Shown piece by piece: positions 2,582 through 41,316 of a stretch of DNA of 64,000 nt. The translations under genes and the position numbers were made by a program. Location of the stretch: the NCBI GenBank assembly GCA_014871385.1, contig CM026426.1, forward strand, positions 16,182,183 to 16,246,182, read 5' to 3'. A model generated the notes under the pieces. It saw nothing but the letters and a program-made list of their open reading frames with translations. It was not told where the DNA came from and did not search any database. This stretch comes from Ceratodon purpureus. Taxonomy: Eukaryota; Streptophyta; Bryopsida; Pseudoditrichales; Ditrichaceae. Each line of letters opens with the position of its first letter. The stretch's first letter is position 1.

Positions 2582-2680
2582 GGGTGGAAGCACACTACAC
2601 CGGGTACACTTTGGGCAGATTTTGGAAGTACTTCTGGAGTACTTTTCTGGTAGTATGTAAGTGTAGTACTTTTTTGGGAG
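2582..2680 (+). repeat. Left terminal inverted repeat and GTAC-rich subterminal segment of the outer element
   Basis: The segment begins GGGTGGAAGCACACTACACC and then carries closely spaced GGTAC, AAGTACTT, AGTACTT and TAGTACTT motifs within 80 bases. Repeated short motifs next to a terminal repeat are typical binding sites for a transposase. Confidence 0.75.
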
Positions 2681-3395
2681 AATCCTAGCCGTCGATATCA
2701 TCACCGCGATCCTCCTGCGCCCATGCTCAGATCGACCTATCAGGAAGCACGTGACCGGTGGTTCTAGGTGACCAGATTTGGTTATACTTGTTGTAGCCGG
2801 TAGTCACCGTCTCGCACCTCCTAGTCACTCTGGTCTCGTTGGTGTTGCTGGTGTCAATGTTGTCTTGGTAGTGTTTTTTGGTTTATCAATTTGGTGAAAA
2901 CTTGGGAGTTTATGGTACGAGGTTCAATTGTTTTGTTGTTTGTTCAGATGGAGGGTTAGAGGGATTGAGGGATAGAGGGATAGGGAGAGTAGAGGAATCA
3001 GGGGTTAGAGATATTGAGGGTGAGAGTTTCTGTGAGATGCTTGTGTTGTGCTTAGGGTGTTGTTTATTGTCGGAGTTTCAGGTGTTTTTGCGCCATTGTT
3101 TACGTCTTAGTCTTTTGGGAAGGAGTTTTGCTTTAGAGTGTGCTTGCTGAGATGGGTATTCAGGGTTAGAGTAAATTACGTTTTCAAAGTTCCTGGTTTT
3201 GGGTTCTCTTCTACGCCTTGTAGTTTTTTAGGATAGCTCATTTGTTGTTGCGGTAGTATTGTTGGGGTGTCGGGGTTACATGTCTTCTTAGTGTCTTTGT
3301 AGTTCTGTAGACCGTGAGTGTTGTGTAGAGTGCGAGTTAGGGTTGAGGTTTTGTTACTTTCTGTGTTAGGGGAGGATTATTAGACAACAACTGTC

Positions 3396-3407
3396 TAGGG
3401 TTTAGGG
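3396..3407 (+). promoter_or_regulatory. Telo-box-like motif in the leader of the RING-SUVR gene
   Basis: TAGGGTTTAGGG lies 27 bases upstream of the ATG at 3434. Telo-boxes (AAACCCTA or its complement) are known plant promoter and leader elements, common in growth-related genes. A similar motif precedes the coiled-coil RING gene at 28224, so this may be a shared expression signal. Function is inferred only. Confidence 0.35.
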
Positions 3408-3433
3408 TATTCGTTTGTCGTGGGCATTGTGCA

Positions 3434-6400
3434 ATGTCGTCAAGGTCGAAGTCTGTGGGTGGAGACGGTGCTCGGACTAGTTCAAAGGGTGGGAAGAGTA
3501 GGTCCAAAGGAAATGTAGGATCTGCTGTGGGAGTGAAAGTCGGGAAGACCAAGTCGGGGGGAAGTGATGTAGTTGGGGTAGGTGTGAAGCAAGAGGACGA
3601 CCATTTCCTAGACGTCGAGGATTTGCAGGAGCTCATTTCTAGCTTGAAGTCCCCTCCAGATTTGTTAACCTGGGAGGACTTTCGGGATAGATACAACTTG
3701 GAGTGTGGGCCTAATTCTATCAACCCGCATCGATGCCGGAAGGACAAGGAGATTTCGGACAAGACAATGCAGGATTTCGGGTTGAGGCCGGAGGGTGTTA
3801 GAGGTCGCGGTGGATACTCTTGGGCAGATTGCAACAATAGGGATATTGTCAATCGCATCAGGTACTTGCATCCTATAGTGTATCAGCACGGTCCAGATGA
3901 GATACCTCGGTGTATCACCAAGCAGTTTGCTGTGGGCGTAGTTCTAGAATACCAGAAGAATCTAGTAAACTGGGCTTTGTATGGTCAAGAGACGAACCAT
4001 AGCCAGAGAAGAAAATTCGAGCAGGATCTAGGAAAGCTCCAGTACGCCATCAACACCGGGGCGAAGGTGACGAAACGAACATGGAGGGGTTTGAAGGTCG
4101 ACTCAGCGGTGAAGTTGGAGCTCATGGTCGGGGGAGATTCTTCAACGCCCACAAAGGTATGTTTTTGCGGTTCTTTTGATTGGGAAGTTCAGGTTAATTG
4201 ATGCAGGGTCAGGTTGAGGTTGTGATTAGGATTCAGTTTCAGGTTGTGCTTCAGGGTCAGGTTGTGATTCAGGTTCAGTTTGTGATTAGGATTTAGGGTG
4301 CGATTTGGGTATAAATGGTGCTTGTATAATATAGAAAATGTTCCTGACTGTATTGAGAATTTAGGATTCAATAGTTTCTTTTAATGACACATAGAAAATT
4401 CGTTTAGGCTTGGGGTTGCATCATCCTAGCGTAATCAGTCTTTTTCCAGTTCAGGGTCATATTGTATCTCTTTGCTATGTTGTACAACCTGTCCTTTGCT
4501 ATAAGTCGTTATGTTGCTTCTAACTTGCATTGTTTCCATTGGCTAAGTCTTTGAAATTCGTCTGTTTTCTAACATGTGAATCTTACCTTCTTTGTGTTAG
4601 CAGCGTAGGTCAGTACCTATGCCGAGCAATGTACCGACGACTTGGAAGGTGGGAACAAGGGCAGATTGTGTCAACCAGTCGGTGAAGGCAGAGGACCGGG
4701 GGATAGCATCTATGTCGAAGCTCGAATATTTCCAGACGATGCACACGATCCTACTGATGGAGATAGAGGGGTTGAAGCTCGACGAGGACTTGGCGTTGAA
4801 GGCAAAGGAGTCAGCTGCACAGGACACGCGTCTTGCGCTCTTGATGGTAGAGTCCTATGAAGCTAACCTGGCTTCAATACCAAGGGGCGAAGGGGGAAAT
4901 CCTGGTTTAGAGGGGAAGCGGGGTGTTCTGGTGGAGCTTCTGGAGGAGCAGAAGCAGTCGCTTGCAACAAAGCAGAGTGTGGCTCTACAAAAGGACTTAG
5001 AGGTAGTGGAGTGTAGAAGGTTGCTGGAGCAGAAGATCCGTATGTGTGAAGGTGTGAAGACCGAATGCGAACGTATTAAGTATGGGAGGCACTCGGCAAG
5101 CCTGAATCCAGTACCACTAGTCTACCCGGACAGCGCATTTGGAGAGGATGCGTCTCCTGAGCGCAGGTTCCTAAAAATCACCACCTGTGCCCTTTGTGGA
5201 TTTGGATTTCCTAAGAGTGATATCGTTATTGCTAGCTGCAAGCACATGTACCATCCATTCTGTGCAAAAGTGACCTACGAGAGTGGTTACAAGTGTGCAG
5301 CCGCAAACTGTAGTGATAAGTTAGTGGACCCAGATTGGCATCGTAGTTTCGGATGGGGAGGTCCAGGGACAGTTGTCGTCGAGGATGTTGCTGCTCAGAT
5401 GACCGTATGCGACGAGGAAGTGGCCCGCTTACTTGCTAGTCGAGCTGAACGAGCTCGTCTACGCTGTCCAAACACAGGTCAGTACTTGAATCATCTCCAA
5501 AAAGTACTTGGGCTTTTCATATACCTTGGCTTACATTACTTCTCTGCGTTTATTTAGGCCTTGTTTCAGAACATAAGTACTTTGTGGTGTTTCTCCTTTT
5601 CCACTGTATTCTGGAGTCACTAATCAATAGTACGTGTATTGCAGAGGCTCAAGGAAGAATACATTCTCCCTCACTGTTTATACTTTTAGTAACTCGAGTC
5701 GTGTTCTGTTACTCTGTGTTTAATACTTGTTTTGTACTTTGGAATTTCTGTGTACTGCCGTGTATATGTTTGTCCTTTTACATTGTACAATGTGTATGCC
5801 AAGTATCTCAGATGAATTTGAATGTACATTGATACGGTATGGATGATGTACATACAGTACTTACCTTAATCTTTAAAATACGTGAAGGGTAGTACATTCT
5901 GTAAATGTAGTTCTCTTATGTAGTTCTAATAGAAGTGAAAGTACTTTGGCAACAACAAAGTACAGTATTGGGTTTAGGATGTATCAGTAGCAGATTGTTG
6001 TAGGTACTCACATAGTACTTTTAGACCGCATGTACTAATAGTATGTTCTTTATTACTAGACGTACTTCTAAGTACCTAATGTACTCATGATCATCTGACT
6101 AATTCATTTCTGTTGTTGTAATGACAGATTCGTCATTGAAGCCGATGTCGGGTCTCTCTCACGGCGTTGCTAGTTTAGGAGAGCAAAGTCAAGCCGTTTG
6201 CTCAACAAAATTTAGGGACTCAGCGGCTGGAGACACTATCACTAGCAGTCTCATGCAAATTCGGGAGGATGACAGAGGTCAGAGATTTGGTAGTCCACGG
6301 AGGGTGCACTCAGTAGCCTCGAAGCCGGGCACGTCGTCGGGGAAATCTGGGGGACGCAAACGTCAGGGTGGGTCGCAGGTAGCCCCACAGATGGTATTTG

Positions 6401-9308
6401 AATGCCTTCAGAAGGATTCACGTAAGGGATCAATAGTGAAGGAGACCGAATTAGAGGAGGAATCAGATGAGGAAGACTCTGAAAGTGAAGGTATGTCATT
6501 CCCTCATTGTAATTGCCGACTGTAACAATGTGATAGGCATTATATGTTTGTAAATTTTGGGGTGCTCTTGTCCATAGTGAATGGTCTCGCATGAACCTTG
6601 CTGAATTAATACCTGTTGGGTTGCTAATTTTGACAGGTCATGATCCCGACTTGCAGTCGAGCTCTGGGACTACTGTATGCGGCAGCGGAGACGAAGATAG
6701 TGATGCTGACTCAGAGGAGGGAAAAAGTGGGCATAGACGCAGCCATCATGAAGAAGATGGAGAGGGATCTGAACCAGAAAATATGGGGATAGAGATTCTG
6801 TCTACTGAGGTGGACAAAACTAACCACGGAGATCAGTGTGTTGCAGGTGCAGACCAGGCTGGGGCGACGCTGCATGAAGAAACCCCTACGGCCGGGGTCG
6901 TTGAGACCAAAGGTAATGGCGAGCCAACCTCTGACATGGAGATTGATGTGGAACGGCAGATAATAGTGGAGGGTGAAGGCGAAACGAAGGGGAAGGGAAT
7001 GGGGGTTGTGGAGTCTGAGGGTCTAGATGACGAGCACGAAGGTGTATTGAATCAAGACAGTCTGGAGATATGGGGTAGGCCGTGGTCTTCGTTGGTGCAG
7101 ACCATGGCGGCAGTGACGGAAACCACCAATCTCGATGATTGCATGGAACTGTCAATTCCATCAGACGGACACCGTAATCGGGGAGAGAATGAAGTCATCC
7201 CTGGTGTGAAGAGATCCGAGGGAGATGAAGTGGTGGAAGCTCCTGTAGTCGGGAAACAAATGAAGGGGAAGAGGAAATCGGAGGAGGGAAGGCGGCTGCA
7301 GGAGGAGTTGGAAGGCCAAAGGATGGCTGGAAGACTAAGTGTCGCGGATACAGGGCCAGCCCAAAGAACTCGGGCGAGTAGGAGATCATTGGGCGGAGAA
7401 GACGACGGGACTCAAGCTGAAGGCGAAGGTGAGGACCAACGAAGGGCCAAAAACAGGAAACCAAAGAAGAGGGAGGTGGAAAAACTGGCATCAAAGTCAG
7501 GTGGCAAACGGAAGTCAAAAGAAAGCCCAAGTCTGCGCAGTGGCCCCAACTTCGCAAGTCCTGTAGACAGCCCAAGCGGAAAAAAACTTAAGCCGGTTAA
7601 GTCTGTTTTGGAAGCCTCTAACTAATCGATGCAGTAGAATTGTATACGATGCAATAGAATTGTGATGCCCGGATTTTAGTGGGAGCAAAATATGCTTTCA
7701 CCTTGTTTTGTGCCATGTAATGTACATACCTGGAGCTTATTCGGGTTTGTGGTTTTTTTTTTGCCACAATACATTCTATATGTTTTCTGTCTTGCAATCA
7801 AGCAATTCAGACTGCAGACACGTGTCCCATTTTTAAATTGTGAATTTATCTACTTGACAAAACAGGAATATGTGTTACTTAAGGATCTTTCGTATGGCCA
7901 GGAGCGGCATCCTGTGCCAGTGGTTGCTCCAAGTCAATCCCCAATCTCCCCTCCTCGGTTTTGGTACACAAAAGAGAATATGGTGCTAGTCGAAGAGCCT
8001 ACTGAATTATGGACTACGGTGGGAAAAGCATTCGGCCCCAGAACAGGGTGTACTGGTTGTGGGAAAAATTGTATAAGGGATAATCCTTTTGGGTGCAAGT
8101 GCGCCTTATTATCCGGGACTTTTGCCTACACCAAAACAGGGCTCCTTCAGGCTGACATCATAAAGCAACTGGATGACGACTTACCTTTGGAATTTTGTAA
8201 CAAAGGGTCAGGTTGCTATTGTGCGAATCTCCCGTGTGAAGACAGTACCACTGATGAAGATGGAGTTTGTCAGGGCCACCGGCCAAGGACTTTTATCACT
8301 GAATGCAACTCTATGTGTGCTTGTCATTCCAAATGTGGCAACCGTGTGATACAACATGGCATGGCAGTGAAAGTCCAGGTGAGATGGACGGTGCATGTAC
8401 ATCGTAATTTTATTTTTTTTAATAATTCCGATGAGTATTTTACCTTTACGTTATGCTTGGCAGATTTTCAGGACTTCTGCTCGAGGCTGGGGTGTCCGGA
8501 CAGTGGAGCACATTGAAGCGGGTAAGTTCTTATTTGAGCTCGCTGGGGAGATAGTTTCTAATAATGAACTCATGGAGCGAAATCACCTCGTCCACAAACT
8601 GCTCGGGTTTCATCAAACATACACTTTACAGCTTGATGCTTGCTGGCGCTCCGAAGTAATGGCCAACGACAGGAACTCCTTGTGTATCGATGCCACTCAT
8701 TATGGCAATGTTGCACGATTTCTGAATCACAGGCATGGACCACTTCAGCTCAATGTCCATGATCTATTAGACTGTATAGTAAAAAAGAGTAAACCGTAGA
8801 CTCGAACTAAGTACTTGCGGTGTTTCAGGTGTGAAGGGGCCAACGTGGTGGATATGCCGGCACAAGTTGACTCGGGAGAAGACCGTATGTACCATGTAGC
8901 ATTCTTTGCCTCAAGAGATATCAACCCAGGAGAAGAGTTGACGTGGGTAAGTTCATCGTGATTCATCATTGACTTGTTACTAAGTGGTAAATTTAAAAAT
9001 AATCTGCTCCTTTGAGCACCTCTCCCCTCATAGATCCCTCTCCCCTAACACAGTGCTAATGGACATGGCAGGACTACGGAGAGGACTTCCAGTCTGATAA
9101 CCAGGATGTCCCGGGGTTCAAATGTCAGTGTGGGAGTAAAAACTGTCGGGACATGAGAGGTCGGTCGGGCCGGAAAAAGCCTTTGAGGTCGTCACGGGGC
9201 AGGAAACTAAACACAAACAAGGAGAAACCAGCTAGGTCGTTGAGAAGCAGTACACAACTGAAAATGCATCCTTCCTCATCTAAACACACTCTGAAGAGGC
9301 GCAAGTAA
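3434..9308 (+). CDS. RING finger-SUVR-type histone H3K9 methyltransferase fusion
   Basis: My spliced model has exons 3434-4156, 4604-5477, 6128-6490, 6637-7595, 7866-8378, 8464-8732, 8829-8946 and 9072-9308. All phases agree, giving 1,351 residues. Order: basic Ser/Gly-rich start; a domain with the VNWALYG motif; coiled coil; RING-H2 (about 436-476: C-x2-C, CKHMYH, C-x4-C); a long acidic/basic linker with Lys-rich nuclear signals; Cys-rich pre-SET (about 1035-1130); SET (GWGVRT, NVARFLNHRCE, ELTWDYG); post-SET CQCGSKNC. The NHRCEGAN and YHVAFF..RDI signatures are those of plant SUVR1/2/4. The SUVR WIYLD domain is absent, and a RING stands in the N-terminal half instead. Expected role: nuclear H3K9 methylation, perhaps coupled to ubiquitin ligation. 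It is transposon cargo, lying 850 bases inside the left end. The intron at 8733-8828 is GC-AG. The 7596-7865 intron is the least certain junction. Confidence 0.85.
5478..6127 (+). repeat. GTAC-rich intron of the RING-SUVR gene
   Basis: This 650-bp intron runs from AG|GTCAGT to GACAG|AT in phase 1. It is packed with AGTACTT and GTAC motifs (for example AAAGTACTTGG, AAGTACTTTG, AGGTACTC, AAGTACCTAATGTACTC). The same motif dominates both ends of the transposon, so the motif array extends into the cargo gene. An alternative exon could use the acceptor near 5645, but direct joining to 6128 keeps the frame. Confidence 0.6.
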
Positions 9309-14738: not shown

Positions 14739-14746
14739 CCCTCACC
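14739..14746. repeat. Left copy of the 8-bp hAT target duplication
   Basis: CCCTCACC immediately precedes the terminal CAGGG of the hAT element and is repeated exactly at 38144-38151. Eight-base duplications are the hAT signature. Confidence 0.92.
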
Positions 14747-18132: not shown

Positions 18133-18239
18133 CTTGTAACTGGAGAGGACTCGTCCACAATAACTTGCGGGCTAACTGCATCAAAAGGGACCTGTGTTAT
18201 CGCACTTCCCGTTTATATATCATGGCATACCTCGCGCAC

Positions 18240-21717: not shown

Positions 21718-21744
21718 AGGGATTTCGACGAGAACCTGGCGAAC

Positions 21745-22491: not shown

Positions 22492-22529
22492 ACGCTCGCC
22501 TAGTCTTCATACTACGATATGAGGAGACC

Positions 22530-27581: not shown

Positions 27582-27689
27582 AAAACATCCGAGAAAGATA
27601 ATGAAAAAATAATAAGGAAAACTTTAATCGATAAAAAACCAAGCCGGATGGACGCAGCGGAACCCTGTCCCAGATGGCGTGTTAATTGG

Positions 27690-28030: not shown

Positions 28031-28295
28031 TTCTCAACTTTTGCGCCCAGACCGCTTGCCTCTCTCTGAGTGTGCGGGCGCGCGGGGTGCGGGGTGAGCG
28101 TGGGGTCCTTGTACGACCTGAATATTCTGTAAGTACTAAATTGACCCTATTCGTGTGCTCTGTCACATTATATACTTAATGTTAATTTTTTCCCCTGAAC
28201 CCAGCATATGCGAAGTGTCCGTTTAGGGTTTAAGAGTAATCGTATCAGGATCTAACCAAGATACTGTGAGCAGGTCCGAAGTTCGCAGCACGAGG

Positions 28296-31200
28296 ATGTC
28301 CACCGGATCGGGCACTCCCTCTAGGAGGAGGCCGAGCAGACCGGGCGGAGATGAGTCCGCCGGCGGATCGCAGTCCGCCAGTGGTTCCGGGAAGAGAGCC
28401 CGCAAAGAACTGGATTTGTAGCTGGACGTTTTCCACAATAGAGCAATACTGGTTGCTAATGGCTAGGAGGAAGTGCCAGAGCCTTGGGACGCTGCGACGG
28501 CTATGCATTTTGTCGACTTTCCTCATTTCGATCGGCTTTGGCCAGATAGTTCGCACGCACAACACTGTAAGTCGAAGAACGCGAAATATGCATCCTTGAC
28601 AGACGTGGACGTGAAGTGGAGATTCCTCTGCATTCTTCGGGCAATTTCCAATGAATCGAAGTGGCCCAAGAACGAGATCCCGAAGGCTATTCTTTCCCTG
28701 ATGTATGCCGAGCATGTGTTGAAGAAGAAGGTCGACTAGTCTACCTTAAAGACTCCAGGCTCCACTTTCGGAGGTCTAGGAGAGAAATTGACAGCGAAGA
28801 AGCCGGTGCACATACCTTATATAGATGTGCCCGAATGGTTCAAGCGTAATCCTTCCCTTGTTGAAGATCCAGGGGGGCCGATACCGACAGACAGGGAACC
28901 GTCGAGGGCCGGGAGACCACGGCAACGCACAATACAGAATGCCACGTACGAGGATCAGATGGCTGGCATGCTCGGATCCGATTGGCAGGGAAGTGGGTCG
29001 GACCCCATCATTGGCGGGAGTGCGGGAGAAGGGTCGGGCGCGGCGACTGCAATACATGCGAGGGACGGGGGGAACGATCGGACGGGATCGGCATGGGGAC
29101 CATCCGAGGCAGGTGAGGGGAGTTCCGGGCCAGATGTGGCTATGGTCGGATTGGAAGAAATCGTCAACGCGACAGTAGCCTCCTTTTCTGGAGCTGACAT
29201 AGACCTTGACATGGCGCACGGTGGGACCGAGAGCGCGAATCCGGGTTTAGGTAGGTCGGACGAGGGTTTGGGTGCGTCGGACGAGGGTCTGGATGCGTCG
29301 GACGTGGGTTTAGGTGGGTCGGACCACAGATTCGATGGGGGAATCGCTCCGACGACCTCACGGGATTGGCGGATGCCCGGCTCGGAACACGGGTTATTCG
29401 GACGAGGTGCGACAACTAGCACTGGCCATCACGATCCTCCTCAGCCGAGAGGTGCAGCAAACGTTGTATTGGGAGCAGACCCGGTAATGCGGCGTCTGCT
29501 AGAGGAAGTTTTTGCCAAACATGATGCGGACGTTCGGGAGTTAAAAGCAACGATAGGTGGTTTGGAACTGAAGATAGAGGCTCTTCGCGTGTCCGACAGC
29601 GGGGACCAGATGGCAGGAACATCGGACACAGAGTTGATGCGAGAAAGGGACGAGGCGCTGAGATCCGCTGAGAGAGCGGAGGCACGGGCTAATGCATGGG
29701 AAAAGGATATGAAAGCCTCCATGTACGCAGCGAAAACGGCCGAGGACCTGACCACGCAGTTAAATGGCCAACTCACGGACGCTGAGGAACGCATAATTGG
29801 GTTGCAAACGGAAATGAGGGAGATGAGCGTCCGACTCGAAGATGCGGAAAAGCGAGCAACAGCGGCGGAAGCCACATCCACGGAGCGGGCTGTCCGACTA
29901 GAGGAATCCGAGATACGTGCGAAGGCAATGGAAGACGAATGTCGGAGACTGTCTCGCCAATTGGAGGAGGAGAAGAAGAATACATCGAAGCAAGGAGAGA
30001 TAATCCTGCGACTGGAGTCCAAAATGGAAGATAATAAGAAGAAGGCTTCGGACGCAATAGCTTTGGCAAAGAAAACACAGGAAGAACTAAACGAGCTCCG
30101 GGAAGTCGCTACGACGAGCGACAACTTGATACGTGCGGAGGCAGAGGCGGAGAAAGAAGCAAACAATGCCAAGGTGGTGGAATTGGAGACAGAGAACCTG
30201 CGACTACTAGAGGAGGTAACACGGCTTGGGAAGGCCACTGGCGCTGTGAGTGAAGGTGGTGCCAACGATGATCCAATCCAGGGCTGGTCGGAGTCATTAA
30301 CTCAGGAGCAGAAGGCATTACTCGTGGGTGCGCTCCAAAAAACGGAGGATATGTACGTGATCGCTATACTTGCATTAGCGGGGCGACTTCAGTACGAGAA
30401 GGAATTCGAGGCAATTCAGAAAGAGTGGACGGAGAATGGACGATTGCGACACTTGCTCCTCACCTCCTGGCCGCCTTTATAGACGATGTACCCTCCGGAA
30501 TGGGAGGACAGTCCGAGGATCCGGTCCGACACGGGCAGCATTCAGTGGGAGAATGTTGCTGAGATTGATCATCACTGGAAGCGGGATCAGAAATGGGGGA
30601 TGGGCAAGACCAAAGCGCTGCGGGCGGCGCTGACTTGGCCCGTCCCGCACGACATGACAATCGACGGAACCAATTGCATCGTGTGCTTTAATCCTTTTGG
30701 CCCGGAGGGGTGCTGGCAACTGGGGACGTGCAAACATGGATTTCACCCATATTGTTTAATCCCGATGATGATAAGAAGACGTGCGTGTCCAATCTGCGCA
30801 GCCCCTCTCCATCCTCGCCTGTATTTGACATTCGGATTGAGGGATTTCATGCCCAGGGGCTGGGCGTACGATCCAAGGGAGTTCCCACTTAACTATCCGC
30901 TCGGGACTTTCGAGGGAAAACCAATGGAGTGGGTCTGGCAACTACACACGTCGCAGCTCGAGATGTGGCACCAATTTCAGCCTACGGACTTGCTAAAGAA
31001 ACCGAGGACCATTATGCAAGCGGCCGATTTGTTGTACCCAGGGAAGCCTGTCGATAGTGGAATCAGGCAATACTTTTACCAGATGTGCAAACACTACTGG
31101 GACAGTAGAAAGGGCCAGCTGGTTCCAGGGGAGAATCCAAATCCAGTGAATTCACAAGGATTGCCTGCGACATCTGCCGACGTATTGGCAGGATTTCCAG

Positions 31201-31619
31201 GAGGAGGATATACGGGTGCTACCAGTAGTCGCGAGATGGATTACGAACAGGGTTACCACACGATGCGGCTAGAGATGCTCGCTTTAGAAGAATTGTTATG
31301 CAAAATTCTCCCCGCTACCAAGAGGTGGCTGGATAAGAAAGGACCGAGGCCCAAGCCGAAGGAGCCATCATGTCGTGGACGCTTGTTATCGAGTGGTGCT
31401 TCGACTTCAGGAACTTCAGGGGCCACACCAAGGAGCGCGACACCGCCGGGGAATTCCACGAGGAACGCGTCACGAACCCGTTTGAACCCAAGCCAGTCGG
31501 CACCTCCCTCCAGAGTCCCGACACCGCCGATTCCGCCGTCCGAGGGCCCAACGCAACCTGGCCACAATAGTGCAGCGTCCGGATCAGGTGATACATTGCA
31601 AATAGACGATTTGGAGTGA
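28296..31619 (+). pseudogene. Coiled-coil RING-H2 protein, one long frame with four in-frame TAG codons
   Basis: From ATG 28296 to TGA 31619 a single frame of 1,107 sense positions contains no TAA, TGA or frameshift. It is crossed by four TAGs, at 28419, 28464, 28737 and 30480. Order: basic N-terminus; a conserved-looking segment (VPEPWDAATAMHFVDF, SKWPKNEIPKAI); a Gly/Asp repeat region; about 250 residues of coiled coil (roughly 397-645); RING-H2 at about 794-835 (CIVC, CKHGFHPYC, CPIC); and a Pro/Ser-rich tail. This is the layout of the other transposon RING genes here, so the parts belong together. Likely an E3 ubiquitin ligase when intact. The TAGs could be decay of CAG codons, small unrecognised introns, or readthrough. 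Confidence 0.75.
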
Positions 31620-31789
31620 GATGAACTCCTAGAACTGTATAGAGTGTAAACCATTAACAATGTTTTATTTTCTTTCATAACTATAGTAACCATTGCATAA
31701 ACATAACTTCATTTGGCTTTTTCCTTTCCCGAAGACTCACCTAGAGTCACCAACGCCTAAGTCTGGATATATGCCATATAAAGAGTATC

Positions 31790-32060
31790 ATCCCTTCAGT
31801 CCGCGCATGCGACCGAGTCCGAGTCCGCCCATGCGTCCGAGTCCGAATCCGCCCGTGCGTCCGGGTCCGAGTCCGCCCATGCGTCCGAGTACGCGTGGTG
31901 CAATCACCGATCGACCCATCCGTTCGCATCATAAGATCGCGAGCCCATGCGGACATAGCAACCCACCCGTCCGACGACCCGCCTCGTCCGCATTCACAGT
32001 CCGCCAAGTCCGACTGTGCGATCCGACCAACCCGCTAACCCTAATTCGCTCACAGGCCTA
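31790..32060 (+). repeat. Short tandem repeat of GTCCGAGTCCGCCCATGC units
   Basis: Around 31798-31900 a unit of roughly 28-30 bases built from GTCCGA, GTCCGCCC and ATGCGTCCGA is repeated about three times and followed by scattered GTCCG words. It lies between the RING gene and the kinase gene and may contribute to the kinase promoter. Confidence 0.65.
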
Positions 32061-32150
32061 GATCCTACGTCTGCCACCCGACCGATCCCTTCCAAGGGTG
32101 ATCGCCAAGCAATCAGTTATCGTCCCAGATCAATGATCTTCCTCGTCTCC

Positions 32151-32158
32151 TATATAAA
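32151..32158 (+). promoter_or_regulatory. TATA box of the kinase-like gene
   Basis: TATATAAA is followed by AGGTGTCCC. The ATG is at 32390 directly after an acceptor-like TTTCCAG at 32383, so transcription probably starts near 32185 and a leader intron is removed. Confidence 0.5.
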
Positions 32159-32389
32159 GGTGTCCCTTTATTTTCCGCTCACTTTCCCATCCTCTCTAGG
32201 CCTCTCGTTGGGATCCGAGACTCTGTTGCGTCCGTCGGGACAGCGACAGTGCGCGGGTCCGGAGGGTCAGTAGAGCACGGGACCGATTTCAGAGACAAAC
32301 CCTTGCTAATTTATATCAGGGTTCTGAACTGACTCGCCTACCGAAAAACCAATTGCTGATTGTTCTGTTTTCTTCCTTTCCAGGGTACC

Positions 32390-34324
32390 ATGGCAAACGA
32401 GAGTGGAAGAATACATCAGGAATGGCGATCCGACGGGAGCCCCGTCGGAGCACTCGGGGTGGGCGGGGGGCGTGGCGGAGAGAGAACCAGGTTTAATCAG
32501 GAATTCACCCCGATGGAAAACCTCGGAGGAGGCCACTTGCAGCGAGCGCGGGGAACGCGGGGTGGCCATGGTTCCCGGAGTCACGACTCTCGTGCAACCC
32601 ATAGATCTGGGGGGCGACACGGTGCGATAGAAAGCCACGCCGCGGAAAACATCGGCAGCCAAGGCACTAGGTCTGGTCCAGCGAGCTCGGGAAGTTCTAG
32701 CGGAGTACAAGCACCCGCCATGGAAATCGTCCCGCCACCTAAACCACTACCTAGGGTATTGTGGACATCGGCACCGTCCGACCAGTGTCCGCCGTCTACT
32801 GAAGAGCGTAGGGGAAGTAAGCGGGCAGGGGGGTCGCAAGGAACGGAGTCTGGGTCGACCGCGTCCGGTTATGAGGTTAGGAAGCACAAGCATCGGAAGA
32901 AGGTAGCCGCGTGTGACCAGCATTCCACGGAGGCTAGGCTTTGCTGTAGAAAGATAATCCTGGACTGGTTTGCAAGCCACGACATGCCATACTTGGAGAG
33001 TACATTCTTGAATGATGGTCCGGCGGGACTCGAGAAAGCTTCGAATGCTCTGAGGTTACTACTGCAGGAGGGCATGGCGGGGGATGAGTTCCAAGAGGAT
33101 AGAGGGAAGAGTAATTGGGGACAGTGGATCGAGGAACAGGTGCAGGAGGCATTGTTCAATTCGACAGTGCCATTTAACATGATATGTGGACCTGGTTCGG
33201 GATGTAGTGGGGGAAACTCCGAGCTCCTTCAGAAGCTGGAGAATTGGAAAAGAGGTGCTATCCTCGCGAAGGGGAAGGGAAGGACTACACTGCCGAAGTT
33301 CGTCGGGAGAGCTCTGGCCGACGACATCGCTTCTCGGGACAGAAACGGTCTGAAGTGGCTACCGAAGGGTTCTTACGCCATCCCCGTAGACGAAAATAGT
33401 TTTCAGGGTTCGTTTGGAATCGTGCGAAGGGTGCGAATTGCAGAGGCATGTTTCATCCCGGAGTGGCTTCATTTTGCAGGGAAGACCATGAAGGTGACTG
33501 ACTTCAAGACAAGTCGCGATCAACGCTCTATCGAGGCAATGTCGTGTCCAGTTGATCACCCTGGTGTGATTAAGCTGCAATACCTAAACCGGAAGACGCT
33601 CGAGTCGTACTCGCTATGGTGGAACGGAGGCTCGTTGAAGAACATGCGTGCGTTCGATTTGAAATTTGGGGAAACCCATGAAATGGAACTCCTCAAAGAC
33701 GCAGGTCTGGACTTCGAGGCCCGGAAGAAGCTGGTCGTTTACCGAAAAAATCGAGCTCACTTGGCCTGGGCTCTCATGTGCATCGTGGATGTGGTACACG
33801 GCGAGGAAGTGCTACACTGCGACCTGCACCCTAACAATGTCATGCTCCACTTTCCAACAGACCGCGACGGAGCTATTTTCATAGGTATATGTGACTGGGG
33901 AATGGCTTCTTTCATGCCCGAATCGGCCCCTTCGTACTACGGAGTACAGAGCGAAGACGCGATAAAGAAGCACATGGAAATGTACAGTTGTGCCGCTCCG
34001 GAGTTGTTCCATGTGCATGGCTCTAGAGGCTCATCCCAATCCCCACGTCGCATGGCAAAGCAGCACCCTCACACGTACAAATCAGAGTCCTATAGCGTTG
34101 GAGTACTCGCAAGGCAGATTTACAACTCCGACTCGACATCGGTTCTATTTCAGCAGAACCGCGATCCTAACGGGGTTAAGATGCGCTTTGAGCAGGGTTT
34201 AGACGAAATGACCCAGATCAACCCGGCTGCTAGACAAACCGTCACACACGTCGTGAGGACGTTGAAGTTACCACCTTACAATCTGCAAACACCGAATATG
34301 TGTTTCCGGGACACCCATTCATAA
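32390..34324 (+). CDS. Protein-kinase-like protein of the hAT element (644 aa)
   Basis: The ATG has context TACCATGG just after a splice-acceptor motif. Residues 1-180 are Gly/Ser/Arg-rich and probably disordered; 180-310 are helical. A kinase fold follows: glycine-loop segment GSFGIVRRV (about 340), candidate ATP-binding Lys in FAGKTMK, HPGVIKL, catalytic loop HCDLHPNNVML (Asp about 478), metal motif ICDWGMA (Asp about 502, where DFG is usual), and CAAPEL in place of APE. The key Lys, Asn and Asp residues are present, so activity is possible. HCD and DWG are unusual forms. It lies downstream of the RING gene on the same strand. Its target is unknown; it could modify the transposase or host chromatin factors. 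Confidence 0.78.
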   Translation: MANESGRIHQEWRSDGSPVGALGVGGGRGGERTRFNQEFTPMENLGGGHLQRARGTRGGHGSRSHDSRATHRSGGRHGAIESHAAENIGSQGTRSGPASSGSSSGVQAPAMEIVPPPKPLPRVLWTSAPSDQCPPSTEERRGSKRAGGSQGTESGSTASGYEVRKHKHRKKVAACDQHSTEARLCCRKIILDWFASHDMPYLESTFLNDGPAGLEKASNALRLLLQEGMAGDEFQEDRGKSNWGQWIEEQVQEALFNSTVPFNMICGPGSGCSGGNSELLQKLENWKRGAILAKGKGRTTLPKFVGRALADDIASRDRNGLKWLPKGSYAIPVDENSFQGSFGIVRRVRIAEACFIPEWLHFAGKTMKVTDFKTSRDQRSIEAMSCPVDHPGVIKLQYLNRKTLESYSLWWNGGSLKNMRAFDLKFGETHEMELLKDAGLDFEARKKLVVYRKNRAHLAWALMCIVDVVHGEEVLHCDLHPNNVMLHFPTDRDGAIFIGICDWGMASFMPESAPSYYGVQSEDAIKKHMEMYSCAAPELFHVHGSRGSSQSPRRMAKQHPHTYKSESYSVGVLARQIYNSDSTSVLFQQNRDPNGVKMRFEQGLDEMTQINPAARQTVTHVVRTLKLPPYNLQTPNMCFRDTHS

Positions 34325-34589
34325 ATCACATGTGAGTATGCAAAACTCCTTAGAAACGTTTTGTCCAACGCGCAAGTACCGCTTCTAAGTGGTCTGACAA
34401 TTTGAATATAACTATATCATTCTGAACACCAGGGTCCGAGTTTGCATTCGCCCAGGTTAGGCGCATAGGAGGTCATGTACCGTCTCTGAACAGATCAATT
34501 TGTAAATAGAGTTTGTTTGTCAAATTCCTGACCCCGAAGCCATGATAGAGTGATTATAATTCCACAATATTGGGACCAGAGCCCTAAAC

Positions 34590-34990
34590 ACCCAACGTTT
34601 ATTCCACGCCGGACCCTCTGAAAATGGTCCGGCGACGCGGACCACCCCCTTGCCCACTGCACCCGCGGATGGTGCTCGTTCACCTCGAATCCGTGCGATC
34701 CGACACCCTCCTGCAGTGACCACTGTCCGACATCTAGTCCGCCCACTCCGCGTACTCGTTGTGCCCGCTCTCCGATCCGTCTTACTGGCGTCCGAATCAT
34801 GTCCGCTTACCGGTCCGCCCCAGCCGCGTCCGCATATAATTGCCTTCCGACTCTAAACCCCGATCCGCATCCGCCTGTCCGGCCTCAATCGTCCGCTACA
34901 TTAAACCACTTCGGTCTTCAAACCTGGCGACGAGGAATGTCGGAAAGACCGGACGACTGGCCGAGAAATACGGCTCGTGTCCCGTGCTTA
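34590..34990. repeat. GTCCG motif array after the kinase-like gene
   Basis: GTCCGA, GTCCGC, GTCCGG and ATCCGAC words recur every 10-25 bases from about 34610 to 34960. No open frame here is convincing. Confidence 0.55.
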
Positions 34991-35096
34991 GGCAGAGACA
35001 ATGTCACAAATCCTCTTCAACAACGTGAAATTCAAACTCTGACCAACTCATGAACGAAAATTCCCAATAGAACTTACGAACACAAGATTTGATCGG

Positions 35097-35112
35097 TGTG
35101 ACACTTCAGTAG
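35097..35112 (+). repeat. Left copy of a 16-bp direct repeat flanking a RING gene
   Basis: TGTGACACTTCAGTAG here is identical to 37404-37419. Between them lie 2.3 kb holding the RING gene at 35563-36744 and relatively few TCGGAC motifs, so the block may have inserted as a unit. Confidence 0.6.
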
Positions 35113-35562
35113 AATTACAAGGTGCATAGATTTTTTTGAATGCAATGAATTTCGTGTTCATCCATCTATTAAACCGTCTATTACCCACAGCCTACAAGAC
35201 ATTTGAAACACCATATTCATGTTGCAATGATGGAGCCTATTTGGATACACTGAGTGTTGAAGGAGGAGTACGAAGACAAGAAGTCCTGAAAGGTATGTTG
35301 TCAAGTCACAGTCGCCAATCCGAACTCAACCCCTCAAATCACCATAATGAGATGACCACCTTGGCGTTAAATATGGCGGCTGCCTGTAGGGGTAGCCATG
35401 GCCAGCCATGGCGAGGGCAGTTCCATTCAACCACGCCATCGCTGAGAGTTTTGGTTGGAGTCGCCATTGCATTCTGGTTCCAACTTGTAGTTCGCTGGTC
35501 TGAGGTTGCCCCGGTCCGATCGAAGAGGAGGGATATACCTATTGCGAGTGAGAGGGGTCAGA

Positions 35563-36744
35563 ATGGGAGAAGTTGGGAAGGAGAATTACTTTCACGTGAA
35601 GGTTGGGTTGCCAAATGCAGGTTTGGACCCCGCCTTCGACTGCAACCATGTCAGCAATGAGGAGCTAAGGTCCGTATTCGGAGAGAGGGTTCCTGGGAAG
35701 GGATATCTCTTCGACGGAGCGAAATCAGGAGAGGTCAAGGCGAGAGTGTTGGAGCTGTACCCAGCAATCTCTCAAATTCCCGAGCTTCCTGCGGGTTTGT
35801 TCCTCCCGGAGAGCTTCGCGAGAGCGGTCGTTTCGGAGGTCTTCCATCGCTACCCAATGAACTGGGCAAAGTATGCGGAGGATCGCTGGAGGGGTAAGAA
35901 AATCGAGAGCGGAGACGAACTCACAGTCCTGTATCGCACCCCTGACCGGAATGCCACCTACGTCGAAACCCTCTACAAGGGCCTGGAAGCCGAGATTGCG
36001 ATCGCTGAGAAGGACTTCGAGACGGCCGTGGCAATCCATAGTGTTGCACACGAACGGGGTGCGCTTCTGAGGCAGACGGCCAAGCCACCGCTCACGGATA
36101 TGGAGAGGTACAAGCTTCAGATCAAGCTGATGTACATTGAGTTATCTATGGACTCCTCCGAGGCGAAACTGCAGAAGTGGGGGGCGATGAAGTCCGTCGT
36201 CGAAGGCTCTGCTGATGAAACATTCCTGAGGTTCTTCAAAGACGAAATTTTCGGGGAAGAACAGAGAATCTTGGAGGCTGGGGAGGAAGTGCAACGTATG
36301 AAGGAGGATTTAACTGAAACGTCGGCGAAGGATCTCGCGGTGGCCATCGGGGTTGAGAAACGCCTGTCTTCTGCATTGCAGGATGCAAGGGACAAGGTGA
36401 TGGGCTTGAAAGAAAATCTCCGCCAGCTTCAGATATGGTCGTCTACATCAATGTTCCGTGCCCCCAGTCCTCGAATCGCAGCGCCCACTCAGAACATCGA
36501 GTCAATTACCCTTACAGTGCAAGGTTGCTCCCTTTGTAACCAAGGGTTTCTGGCGATGGACCTCGTGACTGCGTCGTGCGCTTGCCCATACCACCCGTGG
36601 TGCGCTGCAGCGCGGACGTCGGTTAGTCAGAACTGCGCAAAATGCGGGGAGCATTTCGCAGAGAACTGGTTGAACAGCTTCGGCTTTTTCAAGTGCGAAG
36701 ATACGTCAATGTCGCGCATGTGCATTGATTTCCAGTATTGCTGA
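35563..36744 (+). CDS. RING protein of the hAT element (393 aa)
   Basis: ATG 35563 is the first good start; the frame is open a little further upstream. Residues about 60-130 hold the shared N-terminal domain, with PMNWAKYAEDRW matching the N/D-W-A motif of the other RING genes in this window. A helical coiled-coil region covers about 140-300. The RING is at about 322-361: CSLC, then CACPYHPWC, then CAKC. The position usually held by the first His is Cys. The stop is TGA and there are no internal stops, so this copy looks functional. Probable E3 ubiquitin ligase; the substrate is unknown. Short direct repeats flank the gene. Confidence 0.72.
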   Translation: MGEVGKENYFHVKVGLPNAGLDPAFDCNHVSNEELRSVFGERVPGKGYLFDGAKSGEVKARVLELYPAISQIPELPAGLFLPESFARAVVSEVFHRYPMNWAKYAEDRWRGKKIESGDELTVLYRTPDRNATYVETLYKGLEAEIAIAEKDFETAVAIHSVAHERGALLRQTAKPPLTDMERYKLQIKLMYIELSMDSSEAKLQKWGAMKSVVEGSADETFLRFFKDEIFGEEQRILEAGEEVQRMKEDLTETSAKDLAVAIGVEKRLSSALQDARDKVMGLKENLRQLQIWSSTSMFRAPSPRIAAPTQNIESITLTVQGCSLCNQGFLAMDLVTASCACPYHPWCAAARTSVSQNCAKCGEHFAENWLNSFGFFKCEDTSMSRMCIDFQYC

Positions 36745-37403
36745 ATCCGTTGCGGAACCGAATATGAAAAACTTCCGACTTATGAGTCTGTATCTTGCAT
36801 CTGATAAGCAATTATTTTTTTAAATTCGTTTTTGACATGATACTGTGCATTAGAGTGTCCAGGGCGCTGGTCCGGAACTGATATCTGAGTTTTGCTACAA
36901 CAGCGCGAGTGGGGATTAGCAGTGCGCCAGATACCGGAGAGGGAGAAAAGAAGCGCAAGCATTTGAACTCGGACATTGGAGGGTGGAATTATGCGCGCAA
37001 GGACAAGTCGACCTCTACAAGCCGCCGGAAATCAAAATAGTGTTTTCCACCTCCGATTTCTTGGAAGACTGCGACTGTATCTCAGCGACGGAATGGATTC
37101 ATTGTGACTACGCAGTGAATTTTCTTACAGTAGCTTAGACACTTTACCTTTTTTAAACTCCCAACTGTGCATCCGAACCAGGAAAACTTTGATCAAAGAC
37201 TGTTTGTAAGGAATTTTCGGACCTATACTCGTTTGATAACTAAGCTACTATCACGGAAGTCCTGTTTTTGATAAGGAACCTTCAGAGCTATACTCTTTCA
37301 CTGACTAAACTTCTACCAAGACAGCCATGTTTTAATGGATTCATCTCGATTACAATATATAATCTGATGGAATTCAATGTCGGTTTGAGAAGTAGTTGGT
37401 CAG
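36745..37403. other. 3' region of the RING gene, no further gene
   Basis: AT-rich sequence with near-repeated phrases (AGGAATTTTCGGACCTATACTC and AGGAACCTTCAGAGCTATACTC around 37210-37290). It ends at the right copy of the 16-bp direct repeat (37404-37419). Confidence 0.4.
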
Positions 37404-37501
37404 TGTGACACTTCAGTAGTGTCGGATGGTTCGAATTTCATATTTGCTCGTGAAGCAGTTGAGCTGTATGAAAATTGAAGACAATATGTTCCCAATCACA
37501 G

Positions 37502-37805
37502 CATCGCGGACCACCCTGTATGTGTTCGTCCACATCGCGTCCGCCCGGTCCGAAAGCCTCCGTCCGCAATACGATCGGCATGAAGTCCGCCCACCCGGAT
37601 ACGCATTATCCCGCCTACAGGCCCGTCCGAGCCATGTTCCCAACACCCCACTGCATCGCGGACCACCCTGTACGTGTTCGTCCACATCGCGTCCGCCCGG
37701 TCCGACAACCTCCATCCGCAATACGATCGGCATCAAGTCCGCCCAACCGGATACGCATTATGCCCGCCTACAGGCCCGTCCGAGCCATGTCCGCCTACCA
37801 GTCCG
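37502..37805 (+). repeat. 152-bp tandem duplication in the right subterminal region of the hAT element
   Basis: The block starting CATCGCGGACCACCCTGTA at 37502 is repeated from 37654 with about 90-95 percent identity. Each unit contains several GTCCGCCC/GTCCGA motifs, so the duplication doubles the number of presumed transposase-binding sites near the right end. Confidence 0.8.
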
Positions 37806-38143
37806 GCCCACTCGCGGACTTCCCCGGCATTCAACGGTCCTGTTCCTCCTCAATCGTCCGCCAGGCCTAAACACGTCCGCCCCTGAACCCTAAATCGGTT
37901 GCCCGTCTCTGTCCGCCCGACTCCGCCGTCGGAACTCCTCCGGACATCCACGTCACCGTCCGGGGCCACCGCAATTCCAAGTAGGACGCCACGTAACGGG
38001 GCCGAGTAACTCTTTTACCCACGCTACTCGCAGGACCTAGAGGACCCTACGCTGACCCCTATTGTGACGTCGGAGGACCCCCGTCACGACCCATTCGGAC
38101 GTCGCGACGGAAAAGTCACGACCCGACGGCATAGAAAACCCTG

Positions 38144-38151
38144 CCCTCACC
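38144..38151. repeat. Right copy of the 8-bp hAT target duplication
   Basis: CCCTCACC directly follows the terminal ATAGAAAACCCTG and matches 14739-14746. Confidence 0.92.
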
Positions 38152-40597
38152 CGTTGCAGCCTCCACAAAAGTAGAACAAACATCACAGTCACAGGAACAA
38201 TCTTGCTGTGCATGCAGTCCCCTCTTCTCCTCCCTGAGAGTGTTCAGTCCTACCCTCATGAGATCCATTTCTACATGGTAAATACAACAGCAAACATTAC
38301 GGTCCCTCAAAGGTTTCACATACCATGGCTTCAGGTTCTCAAACCTTCGCTGGCCAATTTTACACTCTGGATGAGCCTCCTTGAATTGCAGAAAGAATGC
38401 TGTCTGCAACCAACATACAAGTATTATTAGTACTACCGCATTGTATAGTTAGTACTACCTCATAGTATTATTAGTACTACCGCATTGTATTAGTACTACC
38501 GCATTGTAAAACAGTACAGTTACAAGGTACAAATAGTAAGCAAGGCATATCACTCCAAAATACATCTACAGTACTCATATAGTCACCACAAGTACCCTTT
38601 CAGAAGCAAGTACTAATTAAACGTACATACTGACCTTAAAGTAGTGTGATGAACACCACAACCAACATAAAGTACAACGTCTAATTTGAAAAGTACATGT
38701 CCATAAAACCTTAGTGTACTAGAAATACAAAGTCCATGTATCCAATGCCCTGAAAGTACTTATCATACTACACCTATAGGATAGCTAGTACAAACAGTAT
38801 TACAAGTACCGAAGTTGTTTATATCAAGGGTGATACTTTTTGAACTTTGAAATCCAAAAAGTATTGTAAGGGGACATCTGCGACTCTACTAGTACTTCAC
38901 TGCATTTAGGCTGGCTTACAAAGGGAGTCAAAGTACATCAACGAACAACCACATTGTACATTAGATTTCAGTAGTACACGCGGTCCAACACAATTTTCAT
39001 GCAAAGTAACTCGAACATACCTGAGTGACTGTCAAAAAGTGCTTCGCGTGTGTCTCTCCACCTCTCTTCAGCCCACCGTCCTTGTTGACGACGTCCTTCC
39101 TGTTTGGCGAAACTCTAGTTTGACTGTGCCACCAGGCTTGCACTGTAGCAAGAGTGTATTGTGATGATCCATCTGTTCTTTTCTGCCTGCAAAGTGGTGC
39201 AAATCGAGAAGCTCCCTCCTCGTATTCCTCTCTCCTTTCCAAGGCGGCTTGAATATTTTCTGGCTTGGTTCCTAAAACACGTGAAAGAGCCCTAACACCC
39301 CCAATATTCCCACTCACAGCAGCATCCAGAAGTGCTCCTTTTCTAGACAGCATGTTATTTGAGAACGGTATGGACACAGACTGTAATTCGGCTCTATAAC
39401 TTTGAATAAAATAATGAATACTCTTAGCTTCTAAATGCCGTGGATAATAGTAAGGTAACAAAGGCCAAACAAGACTGTGTCGAAGAACCTTCTCAAACAC
39501 AATCTGACGACAATGGGGACCAGGAAGTAGGTTGAGCTCATCACACATGCTGTGCACAATTTTTTGAGCAACCCTAGATGCATCTCGTGTAGAAATGACA
39601 TCTGAATTCTCAGGCGCTGTGTTCATCGTAGACGTCTCTCCTCCTTCCGAGTCCATTGAAATTCTCCTGCGACGGCGTTCCTGGTACAGCCGATTGCGCT
39701 CTGCCTTCTCTAACCGTGCAGCCTCTACAGTTTCCATTTCTGACGCCCTCTCCGCAAGACCAGCACGTCGCGGCCTCAACCTCTGTCTCCGGGCTTGGTC
39801 CCCCATGCTACAAGTGATGAGAGCCGTGAACCCACAGAAGAGACTACGCGGTTAGAGAAGGTAGATCACATTCTGGAAAATAGAGGTTGGAAGAACGTTG
39901 TCCTGGACTTACGTGCAAATACAGTGGAAAACAAGTACAACATGTTTCCATCAAATAACATTAACTGGGTAGCATAACAAATACATAATCGAAACTCAAA
40001 AGCTCTGGAAAAACTTGACGATTAACTCACCTGAAGCACAGGGGAAGGAGTCTGACAGTTGGGGTAGCTGTCGAGTTCTTCTCGATGGAGACCGTCCTCA
40101 AAGGTGTAGGATCCAAATAACGTGTTCGGATTCTGGACAAGGCGCTCACGAGACTGTAGTGCCTGGTTTGAATGATGCAGGTACCAGCTAATATCTCCAA
40201 CCTTAGAAGTTGGTGTCTCGGATACGTGGGTACTGCTAGACACATCATCTGAGGGACTATCACATGAATGGGTGGTGAAATGCTGTCCTACACTCTCAAT
40301 CCCTTCGTCGACGAAGTCGCAGACAGGGTAGTAATGGGTTATTCGCTGCTGAACAAGATGCGGAGGATCTTGCACTACGTAGTAAGAAGTTATGAGGGAC
40401 TGGACTAGTGTAGAGCTCGGAAGATGCCCTTCCCCAGACATTTGTCTCGCAAACCCTGGCGATGGCTGCGCCGCAGCTAAGCCTCCTTGCAACTCCGAAA
40501 AACAACTTCGGTCGACGTCCACAACCCTTGCATGCACTGTAGGCGCATGCAAGAGAAACGAACTTGGGATGGACAGATTCAAGTAAAATACATCCAT
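38152..40597 (-). pseudogene. DDE-type transposase of the outer element, 5' part
   Basis: On the minus strand, an N-terminal exon (40597 to about 40031, ending CAG|GTGAGT) is followed by a 39806-39022 segment (MGDQARRQRLR start, basic and helical) and an exon 38403-38152. The last joins 39022 in phase (VTQ then TAFFLQF). That exon encodes CCCIYHVEMDL and a Cys-rich CSCDCDVCSTF stretch, a probable zinc-binding region, and is cut at the hAT insertion. Deleting the hAT element and one CCCTCACC copy gives an unbroken frame into the 14738 exon (VEAATGEG, then IGCDAHHRVYKR). How the 40031 and 39806 segments join is unresolved; they may be separate genes. Confidence 0.65.
38410..39015 (-). repeat. 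GTAC-rich intron of the outer-element transposase
   Basis: Between the exons ending at 39022 and starting at 38403, GTAC words are very dense; 38501-38600 alone has four. A phrase ATTAGTACTACCGCATTGTA is repeated three to four times at 38425-38510. This mirrors the GTAC-rich intron at 5478-6127. Confidence 0.6.
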
Positions 40598-40689
40598 CCA
40601 TTAACTAACAGAAGATCCACCTGCATTCGAAACCGGCTAGATCCCCTTATATCGGACCTTATCAACAACGCGTACGGCTGAGATCTGAG

Positions 40690-41316
40690 CCCAATGTAAT
40701 CCGACGGTCCAAAATTCCGCAGAAAAGTACTCTAAGTACTTCTCATTTTGGAAGTACATTTTCAACTACTCTTAGTGGCGGCCGCATAAATTCTGAATGT
40801 CTAATAAAACAACTGATAAGAATGAAATGGCCGTTAGCCAACATGGGGCACACGTCCAGAAAGCCTTCTACGTAGGAAAATCACGAAAGATGCTTATATT
40901 TTAGGAATTCTAGGCTGCGAAAAAAAAAGGCAAAAGGCAGCGAATATTTCCATGGATCTTCTACTTCTTCCAGAGTTTTCAAGTGGGATCCGTAGCCTTT
41001 TATGAGTCCCATACCCTGTTACAAAATTACAGCAAAATATAACATCTAAATATTAGAAAACCTGTACTTTGTGGAATTTTTGACAATCTGACATACTTTT
41101 AAATTCGAGAAAAGTACTACTTTTGAAGCTCCATACGACTCTTTTTCTGATCTTGGGATTTCAACAACAATGCTAGGCAATGTGCCAATCATGTTCTGTA
41201 ATGGGAAACGCATTTGCATAGTTTTTTCCTAGGGAAACAGAGTACTTTCTACCGGGTAATTTCTGAAAAGTACTTTTCTGACATACTTTTTACCTAGGCG
41301 TAGTGTGCTTCCACCC
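40690..41316 (-). repeat. Right terminal repeat and subterminal region of the outer element
   Basis: Ends with GTAGTGTGCTTCCACCC, the exact complement of the left end, preceded by AAAGTACTTTTC, AGAGTACTTTC and other AGTACTT motifs (41110-41290 and 40720-40760). ATCCGACGGTC near 40698 is the counterpart of AGCCGTCGAT near 2687. Confidence 0.75.

Follow-up and report, generated by a model that had tools for sequence, protein, structure and literature searches.

Analysis of a 64,000-nucleotide stretch of the moss Ceratodon purpureus (C6:16182183-16246182, forward strand of CM026426.1, in a genome of 362 Mb; hereafter the window) revealed a member of a DNA transposon family that consists of two convergent genes, one coding for a transposase and the other for a fusion of a RING finger with a SET domain of the SUVR histone methyltransferase type (hereafter RING-SET). 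The element itself, referred to as the outer element, measures 15.3 kb, and the 38.7 kb between its ends represent this outer element together with a nested giant hAT transposon of 23.4 kb. We are close to certain of this anatomy of the family. The explanation that best accommodates the whole, an element family in which RING-SET acts as an element-serving, ubiquitin-coupled methyltransferase for lysine 9 of histone H3 (H3K9), is put forward tentatively and falls somewhat short of an even chance.

Ends, target duplications and insertion

The limits of the outer element are given by the following features.

2578..2581, no strand: left 4-bp target duplication TAAA (sequence; empty sites)
2582..2598, plus strand: left terminal inverted repeat, 17 bp, GGGTGGAAGCACACTAC (sequence, motif search)
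41300..41316, minus strand: right terminal inverted repeat, 17 bp, identical to the left one (sequence, motif search)
41317..41320, no strand: right 4-bp target duplication TAAA (sequence)

As described in the initial annotation of this DNA, the 17-bp inverted ends are identical and bordered by TAAA on both sides, and both features are exact and beyond chance. With up to three mismatches the end motif occurs three times in the window compared with a mean of 0.15 in shuffled sequences, the third match, at 176, being the end of another element; at up to one mismatch, the 16-base end motif was found 308 times genome-wide versus 23 times for a reversed control pattern. A genome search with the joined flanks and a single TAAA returned 23 matching places, two of which are the window's own flanks, and the 21 others cross the junction. 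Nineteen of these align along the full 161 bases, including three at 100% identity. Because the joined flanks occur uninterrupted at these 21 places, the 38.7 kb must have been inserted at the window site. The GTAC-rich ends and introns mentioned initially are likewise visible by eye.

The original view of one single 38.7-kb transposon had to be abandoned after alignment with a sister copy (C6:88612117-88627365, ~15.25 kb), which has the same ends and a duplication of AGTC, is 99.7-99.9% identical to the window element over three long blocks, and lacks the 23.4 kb. The proposed preference for TAAN targets was ruled out as well, as the 4-bp duplications of the outer family vary in sequence: identical duplications border 15 of the 18 end pairs examined (TAAA, AGTC, ATAT, AGAG, TCTA, AGGG, CGTG, CTTA, ATGT, CGCA, ACCA, ACAA, TCAA, GTCA and GCTT), and a 768-bp deletion derivative of the family is flanked by TTTA. 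The end pair C6:11743434/11776028 was rejected as one element since it has no common duplication; its ends probably derive from elements that are distinct or have been rearranged.

The RING-SET gene and the outer transposase

The two genes of the outer element were delimited as follows.

3434..9308, plus strand: RING-SET gene, 8 predicted exons, 1351 amino acids (aa), no internal stops (splice prediction)
3434-4156, 4604-5477, 6128-6490 and 6637-7595, plus strand: RING-SET exons 1-4 (predicted)
7866-8378, 8464-8732 (GC donor), 8829-8946 and 9072-9308, plus strand: RING-SET exons 5-8 (predicted)
5187..5311, plus strand: RING-H2 (C3H2C3) finger, first to last cysteine codon (sequence; weak Pfam match; pattern kept in subgroups)
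7866..9151, plus strand: Pre-SET, SET and post-SET of SUVR type with NHRC and ELTWDYG motifs (exons 5-8, end approximate; Pfam, alignment)
12749..14746, minus strand: transposase exons 4 (12749-13165) and 3 (13295-13749) and part of exon 2 (13939-14746) (limits from sister copy)
38144..39806, minus strand: remainder of transposase exon 2 (38144-38403) and exon 1 (39021-39806) (limits from sister copy)

The predicted RING-SET exons join in consistent phases and would encode an N-terminal region followed by what looks by eye like a coiled coil, then the RING-H2 finger, an acidic/basic linker, and the Pre-SET, SET and post-SET domains. Pre-SET (2.9e-11) and SET (1.1e-21) score above the Pfam cut-off, which bears out the SUVR-type SET gene of the initial annotation, and the presence of Pre-SET, SET and a post-SET with its cysteines and motifs agrees with this type. 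Among solved structures, the SET part is best matched by EHMT1/2 (G9a/GLP), followed by Clr4, SETMAR and SUV39H2. The ubiquitin-reading WIYLD domain marks the SUVR1/2/4 subgroup; none was detected by Pfam in the RING-SET exons scanned (all but exon 3, 6128-6490), and over these exons RING-SET thus falls outside that subgroup.

A transposase gene inside the ends had also been reported, and this claim requires division: the sole Pfam-recognisable transposase between the outer ends (open reading frame (ORF) 19204-21717) is part of the nested hAT, while the outer element has a transposase of its own on the minus strand, split by the hAT. In the sister copy this gene is open, with 905 aa in four predicted exons convergent to RING-SET. 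The insertion point of the hAT lies within exon 2, and the outer transposase gene of the window copy is therefore broken, whereas RING-SET stays open. Searches with the 905-aa protein returned no Pfam match up to an E-value of 1, no relative in the PDB (a single match at chance level), nothing useful in NCBIfam, and no confirmed relative among viral (63 pattern matches) or prokaryote contigs (56). Invariant acidic motifs (HID[FY]AENY and SDGC) together with a glycine-rich HGKGEWDGAG stretch, all recognized by eye, suggest a DD[D/E] nuclease.

With regard to classification, the nested element carries the only hAT transposase, and the outer element departs from the hAT superfamily through its 4-bp duplications. 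Harbinger elements have their own transposase and duplications of 2-3 bp; the outer element differs from HarbingerS and PIF-Harbinger in its 4-bp duplications and in a 905-aa protein without a Pfam family at E≤1. Four-base duplications in a moss would fit Sola, judged by duplication length. Sola elements (Bao et al. 2009) have 4-bp target duplications, occur in Physcomitrella and in some cases exceed 15 kb (PMC10741241, PMC9033089). The likeness to Sola, drawn from descriptions, lies in these duplications, while the available portions of the same two descriptions mention no SET or RING gene.

Recurrence in the genome

All copy numbers are lower bounds, as the best 109 of 1024 SET and the best 106 of 1370 transposase candidates were scored, along with the best 40 of 121 right ends and the best 40 of 124 left ends. 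The SET part matches at least 196 exon-level places genome-wide, and the transposase core at least 120. For pairing, 102 SET places were used, namely the matches extending over the Pre-SET exon, including two that begin within it; the other exon-level matches, many of which stem from the same genes, were left out. A convergent transposase on the opposite strand, up to 30 kb downstream, accompanies 59 of the 102 SET places, compared with one same-strand and one divergent case as controls, so that at least these 59 SUVR-like places, lying beside a transposase in element order, should be annotated as transposon genes and not as host genes. In the reverse direction, a SET partner is listed for 53 of 67 transposases in the clade of higher identity (76-99%) and for 6 of the 39 in the 61-63% clade.

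A left end was taken to bound a copy if a right end of its own lay no more than 45 kb away, which gave 19 end-bounded copies; the right end at C6:77788439 fitted two left ends, and the outer, longer pair was left out. The SET gene is enclosed in 17 of these 19 copies and the transposase in 14. It had been anticipated that RING-SET would recur at the same internal position if it belonged to the element, and in 14 of the 17 SET-bearing copies it indeed lies ~5.3-6.2 kb from the left end (19-24 kb in three longer elements). A same-strand SET was found up to 12 kb from 22 of the 40 left ends and an opposite-strand SET from none of the 40. Of the two bounded copies lacking a SET match, one begins at C6:74134608 and the other ends at C6:38373853. 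A further copy, at C11:1006950-1012751, has a left end and a Pre-SET exon with 99% identity, with no right end or transposase among the matches listed, and is probably truncated.

Contig C6 (110.5 Mb, 30% of the genome) holds 63 of the 102 SET places and 59 of the 106 transposase places. We infer C6 to be the U sex chromosome; the published Ceratodon U and V chromosomes are described as ~80% repeats (PMC9273592).

The 16-bp end motif was also encountered with an identical flank, acaaaagaaaga, in L002, L006, L007, L008, L012, L015, L017, L022, L023 and L029, and with the flank aacaaagaaaga in L010; as it recurs with an identical flank, the motif also lies inside another dispersed repeat.

Subgroups and selection

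The RING-linker-SET order is common to four subgroups, A1, A2 (C2:11508144), B (C6:48673209, with ends GGGTGGAAGTACACTAGAGG) and C (C9:5.05 Mb). RING-SET hence accompanies diverged ends as well, and the outcome initially named as contrary to a cargo role, ends that never enclose the gene, was not what the genome held. Compared with A1, the RING half is 71-75% identical in A2, 31% in B and 32% in C, and the SET pieces are 59-85%, 41% and 41-52% identical, respectively; the linker ranges from 21 to 35% across subgroups. Taken over groups, SET identity between A and B or C amounts to 42-48%. The C3H2C3 pattern is retained in A1, A2, B and C, and NHRC, ELTWDY and the post-SET cysteines in A, B and C. 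At the junction of linker and Pre-SET, a candidate phase-0 donor and acceptor are present in all four subgroups, with other GT dinucleotides nearby. Group B has a convergent transposase relative with 57% identity, and the group-C transposase is 62% identical; the group-C copy was chosen from transposase matches without a listed SET, and an intact SET was found within 3 kb. A group-B element (end GGGTGGAAGTACACTAG) is represented in the window itself by its left part, from 176 to ~1876, which reaches 96% identity with other copies.

Ratios of nonsynonymous to synonymous substitution (dN/dS) were calculated on chosen pairs, 30 for SET (six with saturated dS) and 18 for the transposase (three saturated), each set including one pair of zero dS. 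Intact SET lineages gave values of 0.115-0.28 at dS 0.3-1.75 and the transposase 0.05-0.12 at dS 0.18-1.24: both genes are under purifying selection between subgroups. Close SET copies with stop codons showed 0.32-0.75, and such raised values are to be expected if copies decay while the gene is maintained in active lineages only.

Origin of the SET and RING parts

A genome search with PF10440 (WIYLD) gave one partial match, at C1:10.50 Mb, the only one among the matches listed. SUVR-like Pre-SET and SET exons follow ~2.5 kb downstream on the same strand, and the ensemble is taken here as one putative host SUVR gene. It shares with the element protein the SET type, the NHRC and ELTWDY motifs, and three intron positions, which agree in phase with those of group A (Q|V/I, NH(AG|N)C and W|D); unlike this plant SUVR with WIYLD, the element protein combines its SET with a RING finger and a coiled coil, and its scanned exons yielded no WIYLD match. 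The SET-domain tree against host SUVR genes that had been called for could be realized with one host gene, and in this tree, built with a short G9a outgroup, the element SETs form one clade beside the host SUVR with an ultrafast bootstrap (UFBoot) value of 93 (host SUVH, SUVR3 and SUVR5 left out; A2 over 263 aa, G9a over 198 aa).

Since the SET part shares three intron positions with the host gene, an intron-bearing SUVR would have been captured, and a retrocopy origin is disfavoured on the same grounds. The common introns, together with the single clade over the subgroups sampled, suggest that this capture probably preceded the split of the subgroups and, as far as sampled, took place once.

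Regarding the RING part, a profile of the RING half searched against 396 window ORFs matched the ORF at 35491-36744 in the nested hAT (E 6e-18) and, weakly, the ORF at 47653-49335 outside the outer element (E 1e-4). Such RING genes thus appear to be common to unrelated transposons of this genome, possibly as an accessory gene shared by transposons of different superfamilies, and one of them may have become the fusion partner of the captured SET. Two further ORFs of the window, 53218-55287 and 61799-63304, show RING-like C-terminal cysteine patterns by eye and are unmatched by the RING-SET profile.

Relation to known systems

The initial annotation knew of no described element with such cargo, a statement that cannot be upheld, because HarbingerS and MuDR elements with SET methyltransferase genes are on record from the oomycete Phytophthora (Kojima and Jurka 2014, via PMC12730594); these too are DNA transposons that carry a gene for a histone lysine methyltransferase. 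Compared with HarbingerS, known here by description, the present family resides in a moss, generates 4-bp duplications, has a transposase without a Pfam match, and carries a SUVR-type SET fused to a RING finger and coiled coil. Other transposons have taken up the writer of a silencing mark, namely retrotransposons of Symbiodinium and Klebsormidium with cytosine methyltransferases (PMC5890265), where DNA methylation is concerned and the enzyme lies within the coding region of a retrotransposon. Fungal DNA transposons carry TET/JBP dioxygenases (PMC12730594), again an epigenetic enzyme as a recurrent transposon gene, but an eraser instead of a writer. Plant VANDAL elements possess an accessory chromatin regulator in VANC (PMC10398659), a sequence-specific anti-silencing protein that is not described as a methyltransferase in the available text.

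Among the papers listed by the literature searches, whose scope took in few subscription papers or Repbase Reports, no transposon of a moss or other plant was seen to carry a SET or RING-SET gene, and neither a RING-SET fusion nor a SUVR-type enzyme as core gene over several subgroups came up. The main text of a 2026 review on plant gene capture (PMC13317346) contains none of the terms 'methyltransferase', 'SET domain', 'Sola' and 'moss'. Transposon-borne SET genes are therefore already known, and what appears to be new, as far as these searches reach, is the plant case, the RING-SUVR fusion and its status as a core gene.

Proposed function of RING-SET

Plants silence transposons largely via DNA methylation and H3K9 methylation, and Arabidopsis SUVR4 binds ubiquitin. 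The catalytic domain of Clr4 is stimulated more than 250-fold by H3K14ub (PMC8443253). In the proposed mechanism, the RING finger would attach ubiquitin to chromatin proteins around the element, and the SET domain would methylate H3K9 in the same neighbourhood. The RING could thus supply ubiquitin within the same chain; the host SUVR has the ubiquitin-reading WIYLD domain, and the element protein, in the exons scanned, a RING in its place. Such an element-serving enzyme may allow the element to control its own chromatin, either as self-restraint or as camouflage as heterochromatin between bursts, and self-marking could help large elements to persist. This self-directed control appears to us the most likely use, a preference that we hold tentatively. 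Going further, one might picture a branch of moss transposons that lives by writing chromatin, with RING-SET, made from a captured SUVR and a shared RING, as a second core gene that unites ubiquitin ligase and H3K9 methyltransferase in a single polypeptide and marks the element's own copies, the parasite thus providing heterochromatin itself rather than escaping that of the host; we regard this full scenario as doubtful.

Several observations weigh against this interpretation. The RING finger of the initial annotation stands as a C3H2C3 pattern, but its best Pfam score is 17.5 against a cut-off of 27.4. The H3K9 specificity of RING-SET is read from family membership, and SET identities between element and host (39-44%) hardly differ from those between host and G9a (42%, 197 columns) or element and G9a (38-41%), which makes identity alone a weak guide to a SUVR origin. 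No convergent transposase is among the matches listed for 43 of the 102 SET places, two of the 19 end-bounded copies lack a SET match and five lack a transposase, and of the 18 end pairs two have duplications that differ at one base and one is unmatched. The two closest transposase pairs show dN/dS values of 0.32 and 0.37, dS is saturated for SET comparisons of A with B or C, and an AlphaFold model of the window's transposase fragment from a single sequence was uninformative (mean pLDDT 32.8). Moreover, the evidence fits self-marking and the marking of host loci alike.

Among the alternatives, a role in counter-defence, in which RING-SET would disable host silencing so that the elements stay expressible, is the first to be weighed and seems rather unlikely. 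The RING could, for example, direct the degradation of a host protein that acts in silencing, or the SET could compete with SUVR for substrate or ubiquitin, and precedents exist in the transposon-coded anti-silencing VANC proteins of Arabidopsis VANDAL (PMC10398659) and in the fungal TET/JBP genes interpreted as silencing escape (PMC12730594). However, H3K9 methylation is a silencing mark, and the retained SET motifs and purifying selection are more in keeping with a methyltransferase that is active than with an inert decoy. Less probable still is that H3K9 methylation serves targeting or licensing, by steering the transposase to heterochromatin or preparing donor or target chromatin: the pairing of SET with the transposase gene across subgroups and the many copies on the repeat-rich C6 would agree with it, yet weak purging alone can pile up copies on a low-recombination sex chromosome, and the exons scanned gave no Pfam match to an H3K9me reader domain. 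That the host gene is passenger cargo, carried without benefit to the element, is very improbable in view of the same fusion in four subgroups, SET dN/dS values well below 1 and the fixed position, even if a recent review (PMC13317346) is devoted to gene capture by plant transposons. Finally, a host SUVR gene family merely lying between transposon ends can practically be dismissed despite the host SUVR present at C1:10.50 Mb, as the empty sites, the duplications and the constant arrangement of gene, ends and transposase across dispersed copies refute host-gene synteny for the copies tested.

A gene that fuses a RING finger to an enzyme of the H3K9-methyltransferase type, carried by a transposon alongside its transposase, suggests that a parasite may write its own chromatin marks. 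The usual picture, in which the host writes and the parasite evades, would then give way to the question of whether the element silences itself and whether self-silencing aids its persistence. As more than half of the SET and transposase places lie on the inferred U chromosome, the enzyme could matter for the heterochromatin of this chromosome, and the fusion offers a natural construct for studies of ubiquitin-coupled H3K9 methylation.

The nested giant hAT and neighbouring repeats

The element nested in the outer transposase gene comprises the following features.

14747..38143, no strand: nested giant hAT, 23,397 bp, ends CAGGGTTTTCTAT (sister-copy alignment, ends)
14739-14746 and 38144-38151, no strand: 8-bp duplication CCCTCACC of the nested hAT (sequence)
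19204..21717, plus strand: hAT transposase (DUF659, hAT dimerisation) (Pfam)
32360..34324, plus strand: protein kinase ORF (Pfam, genome search)
35491..36744, plus strand: RING-type ORF homologous to the RING half of RING-SET (profile search, E 6e-18)

Its 8-bp duplication, CAGGG ends and hAT dimerisation domain identify it as a hAT element. Matches to the hAT transposase were found at 54 places with 92-100% identity (best 54 of 1410 candidates) and to the kinase at 68 places with 84-100% identity (best 68 of 1491 candidates), and in 31 of the 54 transposase places a kinase follows up to 40 kb downstream on the same strand, mostly at 11-14 kb, with none on the opposite strand. Judged by these matches, the family is of high copy number and looks recently active. 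Besides the kinase, the element contains a second RING-type ORF at 30483-31619. Beyond the right end of the outer element, 41406-44753 holds ORFs of another repeat, of which 42968-43665 has a 70% match beside a group-B end in L028.

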